Part shown: in pieces, positions 12,821-61,856 of the stretch | Position numbering within the stretch: position 1 is the first letter of the stretch | Layout: each line of letters begins with the position of its first letter | Assembly: GCA_024277115.1 (NCBI GenBank) | Contig: JAJRVW010000145.1 | Coordinates: 41,318-105,317, forward strand | Origin: Calditrichota bacterium | GTDB lineage: Bacteria > Calditrichota > Calditrichia > Calditrichales > J004 | Direction of reading: 5' to 3' | Length of the DNA: 64,000 nt | Made by a program: the position numbers and the translations under genes | The notes under the pieces: model-generated | What the model saw: only the letters and a program-made list of their open reading frames with translations | The model's database searches: none | Told to the model about the DNA's origin: nothing

Positions 12821-13915
12821 TTAATGTATAGCAGATACCTCTTCAAGGTACAGGATTTCTATTGATTTTGTTATTTTTTCAACAGCAAATAATTCTTTTA
12901 TTATAACTGATGCATGATTTGCACTATCGCGTTTAAACTGATCATCTTTTAATACAACACTAAGAGAATCCGCTAATGTATTAACCGTATTGTTTTCAAT
13001 CAATTTTCCGTTATAGCCATCTTTTATTATTTCAGTCGCGATGCCTACTGAAGTAGAAATTGATGTTTTTCCCATAGCCATGGCTTCGACCAATGCCAAA
13101 TTAAACCCTTCATATTTTGAACAACAAACATAAATTTCTTTTTCGTTCAAAAGGGGAATTATCTCCTCTGTTGATTTCTCTCCTAACAGGAAAACGGAAC
13201 TCTCCAATCCTTCTTCTCTAATTTGTTTAGAAAGGTTTGAAAATTCAGGCCCATCACCAATAATGTAACAACTTACCTCATTAATTTTTTTCTTGATTAT
13301 TTTTATTGCGCTAATCAGTTTCTTATAATCCTTTGCTTCTACCAAACGACCTACTGAAATCAAAGAATTTGACTGTACCTTCTTTCTCTCTTGCACATTA
13401 ATAAAAACAGGATTTACCGCATTGTAAATTACTTTCAGTTTATTCTTTGGCAAACCTTTTGATAAAAAATGATTATAGACCGATTTAGAAACACAAATTA
13501 TATTAGTATATCGTTTTAATATATGGATTAAAAACGTGTATAAAAGGGACCTTTCTTTATCAGATAAAGTATGGTGCCGCGTATAAAAGAAGTATTTACA
13601 CCCAGCAAACTTACCAATGATAAAGCCAAATATCCCAGCGTGGACAAGATGTGTGTGAATTATCTCAATATTATTAATTTTTATATATTTATACAACCGA
13701 ACCAAACCGAATAATGAGAACCGGCCTTTATTAGAAAAATCATTTATAAAAATTTCGTTTTTGTTAAAACCCTTTAACAAAGAACTGTTTTTATGGAGAG
13801 TCCCGAGATGCCATTCAAATTTACTTTTATTAAAGTTGGACAGCAATAGCAATAACTGGTTTTCCGCACCACCCATCTCAAGGCTATTTATCAAATGGAG
13901 TACTTTGGTTTTCAT
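12821..13915 (-). CDS. Glycosyltransferase family 4
   Basis: ORF 364 aa; NSLEMGGAENQLLLLL, SVGRLVEAKDYKKLI, CCSKYEGFNLALVEAMAMGK. Confidence 0.92.
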   Translation of the reverse strand: MKTKVLHLINSLEMGGAENQLLLLLSNFNKSKFEWHLGTLHKNSSLLKGFNKNEIFINDFSNKGRFSLFGLVRLYKYIKINNIEIIHTHLVHAGIFGFIIGKFAGCKYFFYTRHHTLSDKERSLLYTFLIHILKRYTNIICVSKSVYNHFLSKGLPKNKLKVIYNAVNPVFINVQERKKVQSNSLISVGRLVEAKDYKKLISAIKIIKKKINEVSCYIIGDGPEFSNLSKQIREEGLESSVFLLGEKSTEEIIPLLNEKEIYVCCSKYEGFNLALVEAMAMGKTSISTSVGIATEIIKDGYNGKLIENNTVNTLADSLSVVLKDDQFKRDSANHASVIIKELFAVEKITKSIEILYLEEVSAIH

Positions 13916-15180
13916 GCCGGCACCCTTGCAACTTTGTATTTATTCATAAACCGGAATAAAGCTACTAAAAAGAAAAAGGAAACGGGGAAAATATATGTGG
14001 GGAGAATAGTAAAATATTGAACGAAAAAACTAAGCGAACTTAAAGTAAGTAAAAACCATGAAAAAAACTGAAAGAAAACATTACTTTTTCTAATACATCT
14101 TGTATAAACAAAATACATTAAAATTGCAAAGCTCGTTGTCATAATGATCGTAAAAGGAATACCACCTATTAAATAATATACACCAAAACTAGTACCAACA
14201 TTAGAATCTATCCCCGGTCCAAGATTCTCAAAACCATTGGAGACTAAATGCAAAGTTGGAACTCTAAGTGGGTTACTAGTAACTACATAAATAATATTTT
14301 GCAAAATCGCAAACAAAGTCCAATCAGGTTTTATACCTGGCGTATTCAACCAATTATCTAGTACAAGTGGACTTGTTAAAAAATAATTTAAAATTGTTTT
14401 ATAAAAAAACTCCCACATCCGCACGCTGGTAATAGAAAAGGTATCCCAAAAAATAGTCAAAAACACAAAATGAAAAACAAAGATAAATATGAGAATACTA
14501 AAGGTTTTGATAATTGTACTTATTTGCTTTTTTATTTTCAGGTTCATGTTTTTAATAAAAAAAATCATCATGATCATCCATAACAGGTTAAACTTTACCA
14601 TAAGCAGAAAAAATGAAATACCTAGTAGGATAAGTACTGTGTAGGAAATATATTTTTTTCCCGTCTTTGCAGAGACAAGATAAAGGAGTATAAAAACGGC
14701 TTCACCGAAAACAATTAAATAAGCGCCCGGCCCGGAATTAATTAAACTCTCATATTCATAATTACCAAGAAAAAACCATCCTCCATTGGCATGAACAATT
14801 GAATAAACCCTATAGAAAGTTATCATCGAAATAGCAAACGCGAGGAGAATTAGCAGCGGTTTATAATTATTGAGGTCTGAAAAATAATTAAAATAATCAA
14901 TTTTATTAAATGAGGAAGAAACCTTTATTTTTCTTGTAAAGAAGAATCCTACAATCCAAATAAGAGTTAAATTAAAAAGAATAAAGTATATTGCCCGTAC
15001 AGAAATAGGCGTTATCTGGGCATCTATATAAACAAAGGAAAGTAAGAAAACAATAGCAACAAATGGTAATGCTGTCACAGTAAAAGGTGTAATTATAGTT
15101 TTAAGGCGCCTAATCTCAAAACCGGATAAACCAAGAATTGTAATCACAAAGGCAATTCCTGCAAATTGGGTTTCCATCAT
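13912..15180 (-). CDS. O-antigen/polysaccharide polymerase-like multi-TM protein (Wzy-like)
   Basis: ORF 422 aa, many TM helices, in glycan cluster, ATGA overlap with GT4. Confidence 0.7.
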   Translation of the reverse strand: MMETQFAGIAFVITILGLSGFEIRRLKTIITPFTVTALPFVAIVFLLSFVYIDAQITPISVRAIYFILFNLTLIWIVGFFFTRKIKVSSSFNKIDYFNYFSDLNNYKPLLILLAFAISMITFYRVYSIVHANGGWFFLGNYEYESLINSGPGAYLIVFGEAVFILLYLVSAKTGKKYISYTVLILLGISFFLLMVKFNLLWMIMMIFFIKNMNLKIKKQISTIIKTFSILIFIFVFHFVFLTIFWDTFSITSVRMWEFFYKTILNYFLTSPLVLDNWLNTPGIKPDWTLFAILQNIIYVVTSNPLRVPTLHLVSNGFENLGPGIDSNVGTSFGVYYLIGGIPFTIIMTTSFAILMYFVYTRCIRKSNVFFQFFSWFLLTLSSLSFFVQYFTILPTYIFPVSFFFLVALFRFMNKYKVARVPA

Positions 15181-16239
15181 CTAACTATTCCCAATAATTT
15201 TATCAATCATCTTTTTGCTTACCGTCCAATTATTATTACTAATCTTATTTATCTTTAAAAGTATTGGCAAGATATTAAAATATGGTACTCTTGCAAGTTT
15301 ATTAAATAAATGTAAATAGTATACGAGGACAAGAATCTTCCATATAGACCACTTGAAAGGTGAAAAATATGATTTCATATCAATAATACGGTTTAAGGCG
15401 GATAAAACAAGCTTCTCCTTTTTTTTCTCAATAAACTTATCGACGCTCGCACCTTCTTTATGATAAACAATACTTGTGCAACAACAAGATATCGTCACTG
15501 GTGTTTTACTAATTCGCCAACTGAATTCAAAATCCTCTTCGCCATGAAAAAACTTCTCTGTTAAAGTACCATATTTTTCAAAAACACTTTTCCTGACCAT
15601 CATCGCACAACCATGGGCAAATTCTGAATCGCGAAAATTATTATCGGGTAATGAATTAAAATAACTGGCCTTTCCCCAACAAAACAACCTTCCTCCGGCA
15701 AAGTCAATTTTATCCTGTTGATAGTAATTATAAATAATTGAGTTCGAAATCTGTCGGTCCTCTTTTTCCATATGCTGAACAAGCCGGGTGATTGTATCTT
15801 CTTTAATCACAGTATCATTATTTAGTAAATAAATAAATTCATAATCAAGGTTATTGGAAAGTATATAATTTATAACCTGATTATTGGCCTTTGCAAAACC
15901 AAGGTTTTTATTATTTGGAATTATCTTTATTTTTGATTGCCTGGATATACTAAATAATGGTTTAAAGGAGTTTTGATTAACCACACCGAGTTCATAAAAA
16001 AGTGGTTTTTTAGCATATGGGGATATTAGTTCGTCAAACGCACTATTCAATTTAACATTATTATCACCGTTCAGCCAACTTGTTATAGATTTCAAAGAAC
16101 CATCTTTAGAATTATTATCAACTAAAAAGACTGTAAAGTTCTTGTATGTGCTTTTAAAAATACTTTCAAGGCACTCAATCGTATCATCTGCCCCATTCCA
16201 GTTTAGCAAGATAATCGCAACCTTTTTCTGATTAGGCAA
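15181..16239 (-). CDS. Glycosyltransferase family 2
   Basis: KKVAIILLNWNGADDTIECLESIFKSTYKNFTVFLVDNNSKDGS; probable TTG start at 16239 overlapping the upstream flippase stop (ORF track extends to 16335). Confidence 0.88.
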   Translation of the reverse strand: MPNQKKVAIILLNWNGADDTIECLESIFKSTYKNFTVFLVDNNSKDGSLKSITSWLNGDNNVKLNSAFDELISPYAKKPLFYELGVVNQNSFKPLFSISRQSKIKIIPNNKNLGFAKANNQVINYILSNNLDYEFIYLLNNDTVIKEDTITRLVQHMEKEDRQISNSIIYNYYQQDKIDFAGGRLFCWGKASYFNSLPDNNFRDSEFAHGCAMMVRKSVFEKYGTLTEKFFHGEEDFEFSWRISKTPVTISCCCTSIVYHKEGASVDKFIEKKKEKLVLSALNRIIDMKSYFSPFKWSIWKILVLVYYLHLFNKLARVPYFNILPILLKINKISNNNWTVSKKMIDKIIGNS

Positions 16240-17521
16240 TTTTCCCACCCCACATAAAACGGTATTTGTAGATAGTAAGAACCAGAAGAATAAACAAAAA
16301 GGCTTCAGCAGAAATAAAGGAAATGGCAGTCCCAATATCAGAATAAAAATAGGTTAAAATAGAACAGAGGAAAAGATTAAAAAAACCAGTACAGATAACA
16401 GCCTGTGTAAATTGTTTTTTCATACCAAAATTCATCATAAAAATAATACCAAGAATGTAATTTAATACACCGAAAAACAATACAAAAACAGTTATTTCGA
16501 TTATCTTGCGAGAAAGAGCAAACTTAGCACCTAAAAATATTTGTGTCACCTGATCAGAAAACATATAAACAGCAAAGGAGATTATCAAAGTTATAATACC
16601 TGCACCAAAAGTTAGTACTTTAATAGCCTTAATACTTTTATGAATGTTTTGAGATTTAATTCGGGAAATAAATGGGTAAACCGTTTGTGTAATCGGGTTG
16701 AAAATATTTTGAAGCACTTTTACTAATTTTTCACCTGCAGCATAAATACCAACAATGTCTTTGGTGACAAGTAAACCAAGGATGAAAATATTTGTATTTC
16801 TATATAAATTAATTGAAAAGTTTGCCACGAATACTGGCCAGGCATCAAGGAAGTTCTCTTTCATGGTACCCCAGCCAGGAAAAAATAATTTTATATCTAA
16901 CTTAGTTTTTACAAAATACAAGCTGGATAGTCCCGCAAAAAACAATGAAACTGAATTAATCAATGGTACCCATAAATAGTTTTCCTCATTTTTAATAAAA
17001 ATAAATATACAAATCAGATAAATTAGGCGGCTAACAAGGTTTGTATAATTTAGATATTTCACTTTTTCCAACCCATTATAAACCCAACTACTAATCAATA
17101 TTTGTGCGGGGATGATTCCAAATGAGAAGATATAAACCCATAAATATTCTGTCAATTCATTCCAAAAAAGAGATAAAATACCCAACAGGACCAATGTCAC
17201 CACCATTATAAAAATTCGAATATAAAAAACACTGCTGTATACTCCTGATTTTTCATGATTTGTAAGATTTACATTTGAAATCTTTGTAATGGAAGAAATA
17301 TTAAAACCATAATCTACAAGTATAAGGGCAAACTGAATAAGAGCTTGTGCAAAGGTAATGATCCCAAATCGCTCTGCTCCGATTACACGGACAATATAAG
17401 GAATGGTTATAAGAGGAACGAGATAGTTGGTTACCTGTAAAATCGAAAAGTTAGTAATATTTGTAAAGAGCTTTTTAAAATCTTCAGACTTAAAAAAGGG
17501 ATGTTTTAAAAAGTTCATCAA
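16232..17521 (-). CDS. Polysaccharide flippase (Wzx-like)
   Basis: ORF 429 aa; LVPLITIPYIVRVIGAERFGIITFAQALIQF. Confidence 0.9.
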   Translation of the reverse strand: MMNFLKHPFFKSEDFKKLFTNITNFSILQVTNYLVPLITIPYIVRVIGAERFGIITFAQALIQFALILVDYGFNISSITKISNVNLTNHEKSGVYSSVFYIRIFIMVVTLVLLGILSLFWNELTEYLWVYIFSFGIIPAQILISSWVYNGLEKVKYLNYTNLVSRLIYLICIFIFIKNEENYLWVPLINSVSLFFAGLSSLYFVKTKLDIKLFFPGWGTMKENFLDAWPVFVANFSINLYRNTNIFILGLLVTKDIVGIYAAGEKLVKVLQNIFNPITQTVYPFISRIKSQNIHKSIKAIKVLTFGAGIITLIISFAVYMFSDQVTQIFLGAKFALSRKIIEITVFVLFFGVLNYILGIIFMMNFGMKKQFTQAVICTGFFNLFLCSILTYFYSDIGTAISFISAEAFLFILLVLTIYKYRFMWGGKIA

Positions 17522-53767: not shown

Positions 53768-56700
53768 TCAGGGCGCTATTTTTTTTAGATCGGTACCCAG
53801 TTCTTTTGCAGAGCCGTACCGGTTGATGGGATCTTTGTCCATACACTTCCCAACTATCTTATCAACTAATTCTGGTATGCCTTTTCTTATGGAAGATGGC
53901 GCTGGCGGTACCGTGTTAAAAATAGAATGGATCATGGCCATTTCATTTTCGCCTGTAAAAGGGCGTTTATGGGTCAGCATAAAATAAATCAATACCCCCA
54001 AAGAAAATATATCTGTCCTGTGGTCTACATTTACCCCTGTTACTTGTTCGGGTGCGACATAGCCCAACGTCCCCATAGCTGTTCCAAGATTTGTCATACT
54101 AGAAACCAGAGGCGACTTTGATAAACCAAAATCCATGATCCGAATATCTTTCTGGTCATCCAACATAATATTTCCAGCCTTAATATCCCGGTGAAAAATA
54201 TTTTTTGAGTGAATCTCACTGAGCCCATCGCAAATTTGCATGGCAATACGTTTTATTTCGTCAAGTGGCAGCGGATGGTTTTCCTCGATGTATTCATCAA
54301 GCGTACCGCCTGTAAGGAACTCCATTGCAATAAAGCCAAGGTTGCCCAGCTCACCAATCTCATAAGTCTCGACAATATGTTTGTTAGATAACGAGGTTAG
54401 CAGGTGCCCTTCATGACGAAACCGTTTTCTATTGGATTCATCCTTTAACATTTCCGGCTTTAACACTTTCAAGGCCACAACCTGATTGGTATTCACATCA
54501 ACGGCGCGGTAAACAGAACCCATACCGCCCTCGCCCACACGTTCAATTAATTTATAATGCGAAATTTTCCGTTTACGGATGGCGATTAAACTTTTCCAAT
54601 TCAACACGACCCAACGTAACCCAAAACCAATCAGGACAAGCGCGGTAAAATAAATTAGAAATGCCCACCAGGTAAGCCAGGGCGGCGCATTGATATGAAT
54701 TTTTATTGAAGTGCCTTCTTCATTCCAGATGCCGTCGCTATTGGTCCCTTTTACCATAAAAACATAATCGCCAGGATCAAGGTTAGTATAACTGACATAG
54801 CGGCGCGTCCCACAATACACCCAATCTTTATCAAAACCTTGCATTTTATACGCGTATTGATTTTTTTCCGGGGCGCTTAAAGAAAGAGAGGCAAATTCAA
54901 ACGAAAAGAAATCCTGGTCATAATCCAGCGTTATATTTTTTGTTTGAGAAATATTTATGGGTAGTGTGACATCTTTATCAAAAATTTGAAACCGTGTAAT
55001 TTTTACAGGATGTTTAAAATTGCTGTACCTTATACTATCCGGATGAAAAATATTTAACCCTGAAATGCCACCCATAAAAATTTCACCCCGGGCATTCTGG
55101 GAACTTGCGCCAATATTGAATTCCAGGTTTTGCAACCCGTCTTCCAGCCTAAAATTACGAAACGTATTTTTTTGCGGGTCCAACCGGGAAATGCCATTAT
55201 TGGTGGCTACCCAAATATTATGGTTTTTATCAATCTGTATTGTATAGATTACATTATTGGGCAAACCATCTTCTTCAAAATAACGTGTAAACTTTCGTGC
55301 ATCAACGTCAAAGCGGTTAAGGCCGTTGGCGCTCCCAACCCATAAAATCTGCTTGTTGCCCTGTTTGGCCTCCTGAATAGAACCAACCAAATTATTACTA
55401 ATGGAAGACGGATCTTCCGGATTATGACTAAAATGTTCAAATGTTTCATCACGCGGATCAAAACGGTTTAAACCGCCATCAAAAGTACCCAGCCAAAGAA
55501 TGCCCTTCTTGTCCGCATAGAAAGCCCGTACATCATTGCTGCTTATTGATTTTGGGCCTTGGCCGGGGACGTATGTTTTAAAGGTCTTATCTATACGATT
55601 GTATCGTACCAGTCCGTTGTTTACCGTTCCTATCCATAAATATTTTTCTTTATACAATGAATCCTGCCCGATTGTCCTTACGGCAAAATTATATTTATTT
55701 TCTGGATCAATATTTTCAAATATTTCTCTGTCTGGATCAAAGCTGGCTATGCCGCCGTTGGCAACCCCAACCCAATATTTCCCAAAGCTATCTTTAAACA
55801 TGGCACGGACTGAGTTTCCGGGGATGGATTTTTTTTGAGACGGGTTATGATTGAAATTTTTAACCTGCCCTGTCTCTAGGTTCAACCGGTCAAGCCCCCT
55901 CTTGTCCGTCCCGACCCATAAAATATTTTCATCGGCCAAAAGCATATAAACCATATTATCAGTCAAACTATTTGCATTGCCCGGATTATGAAAAATATGC
56001 TTAAATTTTTTACGTTTTGGATCGTAGATATTGATTCCACTCGCGTTCGTTCCTACCCAAATCATACCGGCCCGGTCTTCAAAAAGGCTTTCGATAAAAT
56101 CACCACTCAGCGAAGCCGGGTCAGCGCCAAACCTAAAATGTTCAATTTTATTGTATTTCTCGTCCCAAACAGCCAATCCATCAAATTGTGTGGCGATCCA
56201 AATTTTATTTTTAGACATCTTTCGCACATCCATAATTTTAGATATGGGCAGCATGCCGGCTGTTTTTTCCAAAGGATCATAAAATTCCATCGTTCGCAAA
56301 TCAAACGCCAGTAAGCCTGATTTATCTGTCCCAAGCAAGAGACGTGTTTTCTCCAAAATGATCGATTTTGCATAAAAATTTGGATTGGCGCCGTCGAAGG
56401 AAAAGCGTTCAAAATGATTTTTCTGGGCATTAAAACGGATCAAACCACCAGGTGTACTAAAATAATAGCTTAAGTCATCAACCTGTATGATTGCATTTAT
56501 ACTGTTGGTGAACTTATTTTCCCGGCTTCGGCCAATTGTATCTATTTTTGTAAACGAGGTAAAAGATTTTGAGGCCGTTTCTATTCTGGTCAAACCCTTT
56601 GAACGTGTCGCAATAAATAATTCATTTTGGTTGTTTTCAAAAATGGCGTTTATATAAGAGCCGGCTAATGCCTCAATAAAATTAAACCGGATTATTTTCT

Positions 56701-57031
56701 CGGTTTGCGGATTATACCTGCAAAGCCCTTCTGAAGTGCCAATCCAGATAAAATTATTTTTATCTTGCAAAAGCGCCGTAACCATGTTGTTGGGAAGAGA
56801 GTTTGTATCTGAGATATTTGTTTTAAAAACCCGGAAATTATAGCCATCATAGCGGTTTAGCCCGTCTTCAGTACCAAACCACATAAACCCGTCTTTGTCT
56901 TGCAGAATAGCAAAAACGGAGCTTTGGGAAAGCCCGTCTTCAACATTTAGGTGGGTAAAATGTATGGATGTATTTTGTGCAAAAAGACTAACAGCACACG
57001 ACATTAAAATTACATTTAGTTTAAGAAACAT
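53768..57031 (-). CDS. Two-component-type beta-propeller (Reg_prop) + Y_Y_Y + TM + cytoplasmic Hanks-type Ser/Thr kinase fusion
   Basis: ORF 1087 aa; repeated GFMWFGTEDGLNRYDG/ WIGTxxxGLxRYN units; YAYKMQGFDKDWVYCGTRRYVSYTNLDPGDYVFMVKGTNSDGIWNE; TM WWAFLIYFTALVLIGFGL; kinase VGEGGMGSVYRAVD..VALKVL..FHRDIKAGNIML..DFGLSKS..GYVAPEQ. Confidence 0.95.
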   Translation of the reverse strand: MFLKLNVILMSCAVSLFAQNTSIHFTHLNVEDGLSQSSVFAILQDKDGFMWFGTEDGLNRYDGYNFRVFKTNISDTNSLPNNMVTALLQDKNNFIWIGTSEGLCRYNPQTEKIIRFNFIEALAGSYINAIFENNQNELFIATRSKGLTRIETASKSFTSFTKIDTIGRSRENKFTNSINAIIQVDDLSYYFSTPGGLIRFNAQKNHFERFSFDGANPNFYAKSIILEKTRLLLGTDKSGLLAFDLRTMEFYDPLEKTAGMLPISKIMDVRKMSKNKIWIATQFDGLAVWDEKYNKIEHFRFGADPASLSGDFIESLFEDRAGMIWVGTNASGINIYDPKRKKFKHIFHNPGNANSLTDNMVYMLLADENILWVGTDKRGLDRLNLETGQVKNFNHNPSQKKSIPGNSVRAMFKDSFGKYWVGVANGGIASFDPDREIFENIDPENKYNFAVRTIGQDSLYKEKYLWIGTVNNGLVRYNRIDKTFKTYVPGQGPKSISSNDVRAFYADKKGILWLGTFDGGLNRFDPRDETFEHFSHNPEDPSSISNNLVGSIQEAKQGNKQILWVGSANGLNRFDVDARKFTRYFEEDGLPNNVIYTIQIDKNHNIWVATNNGISRLDPQKNTFRNFRLEDGLQNLEFNIGASSQNARGEIFMGGISGLNIFHPDSIRYSNFKHPVKITRFQIFDKDVTLPINISQTKNITLDYDQDFFSFEFASLSLSAPEKNQYAYKMQGFDKDWVYCGTRRYVSYTNLDPGDYVFMVKGTNSDGIWNEEGTSIKIHINAPPWLTWWAFLIYFTALVLIGFGLRWVVLNWKSLIAIRKRKISHYKLIERVGEGGMGSVYRAVDVNTNQVVALKVLKPEMLKDESNRKRFRHEGHLLTSLSNKHIVETYEIGELGNLGFIAMEFLTGGTLDEYIEENHPLPLDEIKRIAMQICDGLSEIHSKNIFHRDIKAGNIMLDDQKDIRIMDFGLSKSPLVSSMTNLGTAMGTLGYVAPEQVTGVNVDHRTDIFSLGVLIYFMLTHKRPFTGENEMAMIHSIFNTVPPAPSSIRKGIPELVDKIVGKCMDKDPINRYGSAKELGTDLKKIAP

Positions 57032-59898: not shown

Positions 59899-61856
<1,958 letters not shown>

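Follow-up and report, generated by a model that had tools for sequence, protein, structure and literature searches.

The gene analysed here, from a member of the Calditrichia, encodes a receptor in which a sensor half of the hybrid two-component sensor (HTCS) type is joined through a single predicted transmembrane (TM) helix to a Hanks-type Ser/Thr kinase. The protein resembles HTCS in sensing and PASTA kinases in output, belongs to neither family, and represents a real receptor type that recurs in several bacterial groups and is apparently undescribed. All positions refer to the window, i.e. the whole stretch of 64,000 nucleotides that was analysed.

Domain architecture

A single ORF of 1087 aa with an ATG start spans exactly positions 53768-57031, the coordinates given in the preliminary description, and lies on the minus strand, which that description left out (Table 1). 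Searches against Pfam identified Reg_prop repeats (1.8e-43) in the 1087-aa protein and a Pkinase match at residues 826-1074 (8.8e-55). The ectodomain carries 11 W-x-G/A-T blade motifs with a spacing of mostly 43-51 residues, one gap in the series where weaker blades fit and a further blade near residue 650, a pattern that agrees with a predicted pair of seven-bladed propellers comprising 14 Reg_prop-type blades, this count having been read partly by eye. The complete Hanks catalytic set of P-loop (GEGGMGSV, 833-840), Lys (VALK, 852-855), helix-C Glu (874), HRD (HRDIK, 947-951), DFG (967-969) and APE (APEQ, 993-996) is present. The catalytic residues are invariant in 12 aligned proteins, in which Thr is also kept in the activation loop, and the conserved Thr of the MTNLGTAMGT segment are putative autophosphorylation sites. 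The Reg_prop propellers, Y_Y_Y domain and one TM helix of the preliminary description were borne out by Pfam, hydropathy and the structural model, and its intact P-loop, VALK, HRD, DFG and APE motifs by their positions in the sequence.

Table 1. Features of the receptor gene, with approximate residue boundaries marked by a tilde
Feature	Residues	Position in window	Strand	Basis
Whole gene, Reg_prop/Y_Y_Y receptor Ser/Thr kinase	1087 aa	53768..57031	-	ORF call, Pfam
Predicted signal peptide (MFLKLNVILMSCAVSLFAQ)	~1-19	56975..57031	-	Sequence reading, hydropathy
First beta-propeller	~24-310	56102..56962	-	Reg_prop, model, 4a2m fold match
Second beta-propeller	~311-668	55028..56101	-	Reg_prop, blade motifs, model, fold match
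Y_Y_Y domain	719-780	54692..54877	-	Pfam PF07495, 5.3e-21
Single TM helix	~788-810	54602..54670	-	Hydropathy maximum 783-811; model helix 788-810
Conserved basic juxtamembrane linker (NWKSLIAIRKRKISH)	811-825	54557..54601	-	Homologue alignments
Hanks-type kinase domain, C-terminal	826-1085	53777..54556	-	Pfam PF00069, PDB matches
Activation-loop segment MTNLGTAMGT	979-988	54068..54097	-	Alignments; low pLDDT 975-987

Structural comparison and relation to known receptors

The structure was predicted with AlphaFold2 from an alignment of 12 sequences, yielding a model with a mean pLDDT of 80.8 and a pTM of 0.59, at which the placement of the ectodomain relative to the kinase is uncertain; the signal peptide region appears as a low-confidence N-terminal helix. 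Foldseek gave 4a2m (BT4663) as the best fold match of the ectodomain, with a TMt of 0.79 and an E of 2e-64; for the kinase, PknB was matched with a TMt of up to 0.91. Searches of the PDB by sequence returned 4a2l for the ectodomain (4e-116), with the HTCS sensor 3v9f also among the best matches, and PknB/Stk1 for the kinase (about 1e-53). The preliminary description had read the gene as an HTCS-type ectodomain with a Ser/Thr kinase output and had suggested structure prediction as a check; this reading is upheld by the HTCS-like ectodomain and PknB-like kinase fold of the model, by the sequence matches, by the conservation of the catalytic residues in all 12 aligned homologues and by that of the junction.

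Like the HTCS BT4663 (4a2l, 4a2m), the receptor combines two seven-bladed propellers and a Y_Y_Y domain with one TM helix; unlike HTCS, the Calditrichia receptor gave no Pfam match to HisKA/HATPase_c, a receiver or an AraC-type HTH, and its chain ends at the Hanks kinase. With the PASTA kinases PknB/Stk1/PrkC it shares a kinase domain and, as predicted, a single TM helix and an external sensor, but it has no PASTA repeats, its kinase is C-terminal and its sensor N-terminal, and its score against the Stk1/PknB equivalog NF033483 of NCBIfam, which residues 825-1085 alone match, was 291.6 versus a curated cut-off of 450 bits. In PknD of Mycobacterium tuberculosis the kinase is N-terminal, with the propeller behind it. 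PknD is also a receptor Ser/Thr kinase, and its sensor is a beta-propeller outside the cell, as predicted for the present protein; however, its propeller is single and six-bladed (PMC2877116, PMC3601408), whereas here two seven-bladed propellers and Y_Y_Y stand ahead of a C-terminal kinase. Cyanobacterial CHASE2 kinases, cited in PMC2877116, have an extracellular sensor that is common to histidine kinases and Ser/Thr kinases; a CHASE2 member (L176/L075) falls in the same kinase clade as the present receptor, but the CHASE2 sensor is unrelated to propeller/Y_Y_Y. Because the sharing of CHASE2 and the propeller sensor of PknD were already known, the new combination is less surprising than it would otherwise be.

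Homologues and integrity of the gene

Full-length homologues with 36-54% identity span the TM-kinase junction in independent assemblies. The homologue from the same genus (G001) is 54% identical and that of another Calditrichia genome (G004) 44% identical, both over the full length; those of G023 and G025 show 41-42% identity over residues 253/272-1083 and 36-37% over the full length, and those of G032, G028 and G038 match across the junction. Chance is excluded, because full-length homologues with an identical domain order occur in independent assemblies. The misassembled chimera envisaged in the preliminary description, an HTCS gene fused to an unrelated Ser/Thr kinase gene, would fit a fragmented source assembly (4.97 Mb in 255 contigs) and two halves that come from large families, but it was rejected as having a negligible probability on the evidence of homologues that cross the same TM-kinase junction in numerous independent assemblies from different phyla, of the similar GC of the two halves (0.39 and 0.43) and of the location of the gene on a 105 kb contig.

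Distribution

The junction alignment (Y_Y_Y, TM and kinase) was used as a search profile against 40 Calditrichia genomes, and 10 proteins in eight of these matched the whole alignment with 716-556 bits; below 556 bits a score gap was followed by kinases matching the kinase part alone. The architecture was also present in 3 of 98 Chlorobia genomes, in one of 391 Ignavibacteria genomes and in seven of 396 sampled Acidobacteriota genomes (eight proteins, four of them confirmed with Pfam). The scan of named genomes relied on patterns that characterise a single kinase clade, and the true spread is therefore underestimated. The co-occurrence of the domains and their phyletic spread, proposed for checking in the preliminary description, thus extend over Calditrichia, Chlorobia, Ignavibacteria and Acidobacteriota; the architecture might have proved widespread and already described, but its occurrence is sporadic, if beyond one lineage, and no description of Reg_prop or Y_Y_Y joined to a protein kinase was found in the open-licence literature. 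Signalling kinases are not discussed in the searched passages of the Caldithrix abyssi genome paper.

Several further observations were made during these comparisons. Two Reg_prop receptor kinases nearly adjoin each other in G004 (L123:9472-12738 and 13438-16803), and an FG-GAP kinase lies ~4 kb from the Reg_prop kinase in G001 (L122). The loci L048 and L069 (WYBG01, titled Deltaproteobacteria PRO9) are related in sequence to Calditrichia, in disagreement with the title, and the bin appears to be misnamed. The single genome of Uabimicrobium amorphum (L113, G550) contains at least 150 matched Hanks kinase domains.

Kinase clade and exchange of ectodomains

In a tree of 119 kinase domains, 42 that lie at the C-terminus after a large N-terminal part group into a single clade (support 100/100), the ectodomains of which are of Reg_prop/Y_Y_Y types, FG-GAP types and one CHASE2 type. 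FG-GAP types were identified with Pfam in two proteins of the source genome and two more, the rest being assigned by motif count; the four proteins carry FG-GAP_3, to which PSII_BNR is added in those of full length and a weak ASPIC match in some. The FG-GAP receptor kinases, which occur in Ignavibacteriota and Calditrichota, share the clade and the order of N-terminal sensor and C-terminal kinase with the present receptor, but theirs is a YCF48-like plus FG-GAP sensor (with ASPIC in some) and they have 2-3 predicted TM helices. These FG-GAP (VCBS-like) kinases, found also in Stygiobacter electus (L062), are encoded at loci L001/L172, L002/L173, L122:14844-18284 and L053-L074.

Within the clade, monophyly was rejected both for the Reg_prop members (p-AU 0.002) and for the FG-GAP members (p-AU 0.003), and the Reg_prop/Y_Y_Y, YCF48-like plus FG-GAP and CHASE2 ectodomains were, as judged from the tree, exchanged on the kinases of the clade during evolution. 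The clearest apparent swap is found in G028 (Calditrichia), where one kinase of the Reg_prop type and one of the FG-GAP type have kinase regions that are 71% identical and are sisters in the tree. Proteins of Acidobacteriota form the sister group to the clade (support 98/91), so that the Reg_prop/Y_Y_Y ectodomain may, on this reading of the tree, be the older state.

Genomic neighbourhood

The neighbouring genes encode Aldedh, Rrf2, DUF5916/CBM9, DUF302, HisC, RpoN, an alkaline phosphatase, an alpha/beta hydrolase, one protein of unknown kind, DnaK and a DegP-like protease, consistent with the earlier remark that no response regulator or SusCD/PUL gene adjoins. A conserved operon partner or substrate gene was sought and rejected, none being found in the loci compared; among these loci, the rpoN and alkaline phosphatase neighbours are kept only in the source genome, and the alpha/beta hydrolase is the sole neighbour kept, in the same genus only. 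A gene standing alone in this way fits an orphan one-component receptor. The dnaK gene appears to be frameshifted near its N-terminus (window ~61650-61840, minus strand), its remainder (60166-61626) lying in a different frame from the N-terminal part, probably owing to a sequencing or assembly indel.

Proposed mechanism

In the most probable reading, which we hold with good though incomplete confidence, the protein is an orphan one-component, single-pass inner-membrane receptor Ser/Thr kinase that is switched by ligand-driven rearrangement of a dimer. The proposal joins the scissor-like signalling movement reported for the heparin/HS sensor BT4663 (PMC8534201) to the activation of PknD and PknB, which proceeds through dimers of the N-lobes and phosphorylation of the activation loop (PMC3601408). 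Architecture, conservation, catalytic motifs and predicted fold are established by the analysis, whereas the topology in vivo, dimerisation, ligand class and kinase activity are inferred. The HTCS-type sensor half, with its two propellers and a Y_Y_Y beta-sandwich, would be exported to face the periplasm, with the PknB-like kinase half in the cytoplasm, tied to the TM helix via ~15 residues. By analogy with BT4663, the ligand would most likely be a carbohydrate or a fragment of a cell-surface polymer. It would alter the geometry of the ectodomain dimer, and the Y_Y_Y/TM module would relay this change inward, allowing two kinase domains to meet productively and to trans-phosphorylate the Thr of their activation loops. 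Once active, the kinase would phosphorylate Ser/Thr substrates in the cytoplasm, with no response regulator involved. A glycan ligand would be expected by homology alone, since no PUL genes adjoin, and the coupling from TM helix to kinase is conjectural, because HTCS act on a DHp coiled coil and this kinase is without one.

Outputs of homologous ectodomains and alternative readings

Homologous ectodomains are joined in the source genome to HisKA-receiver-AraC (two proteins), to HisKA_3, LytS-type and Hpt/HATPase-type histidine kinases, to one HisKA fragment and to SpoIIE phosphatases. The ectodomain tree was poorly resolved with long branches, and a single clade of Ser/Thr kinase-linked ectodomains was not rejected (p 0.19). 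At least 8 of the 24 SpoIIE domains of this genome are located on Reg_prop/Y_Y_Y receptors, including Reg_prop–Y_Y_Y–SpoIIE tandem arrays on contigs C36, C63 and C138 (L195, L194 and L193), which are broken at contig ends and encode receptors of ~1090-1290 aa. No FHA domain, a reader of phospho-Thr, was found in the source genome at E<=0.001, and 12 STAS domains are present, mostly in small proteins; partner-switching substrates are therefore possible, though linkage gives no support for them.

These SpoIIE and STAS domains could mean that kinase and SpoIIE receptors with a common kind of ectodomain jointly set the phosphorylation of shared targets, e.g. STAS-domain proteins. Such an arrangement, which adds to the ligand-switched receptor proposed above and does not exclude it, is unlikely, as the kinase gene has no physical linkage to SpoIIE or STAS genes and SpoIIE and STAS proteins usually pair with RsbW-type kinases. 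A constitutively or concentration-dependently active kinase, with an ectodomain that chiefly anchors or localises the protein by binding to another protein or to a polymer of the cell wall or surface, is in our view improbable. In PASTA kinases, the roles of localisation and of ligand-induced dimerisation continue to be debated (PMC3601408), and the swapping of ectodomain types on a near-identical kinase implies that tight co-evolution is unnecessary; however, the same ectodomain gates histidine kinases and is attached to SpoIIE phosphatases in the source genome, and the TM/juxtamembrane stretch is conserved, both of which speak against this reading.

Significance

In Bacteroidota, HTCS-type sensors provide one of the main routes for reading polysaccharides and are always discussed as inputs to histidine kinases and transcription, whereas here such a sensor is predicted to feed Ser/Thr phosphorylation, in lineages whose Ser/Thr signalling is almost unstudied. 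As the ligand of BT4663 is known, the common ectodomain offers a direct test of whether a ligand can switch a bacterial Ser/Thr kinase across the membrane, which is still debated for PASTA kinases, and the kinase clade provides a naturally occurring series of sensor exchanges on a single kinase. More tentatively, and with the balance against it, the clade may constitute a bacterial counterpart of receptor-like kinases, in which one kinase carries interchangeable sensors (Reg_prop/Y_Y_Y, FG-GAP and CHASE2) and histidine kinases and SpoIIE draw on the propeller as well; signals from outside the cell, perhaps glycans, would then be read via antagonistic Ser/Thr phosphorylation and not via two-component phosphotransfer.
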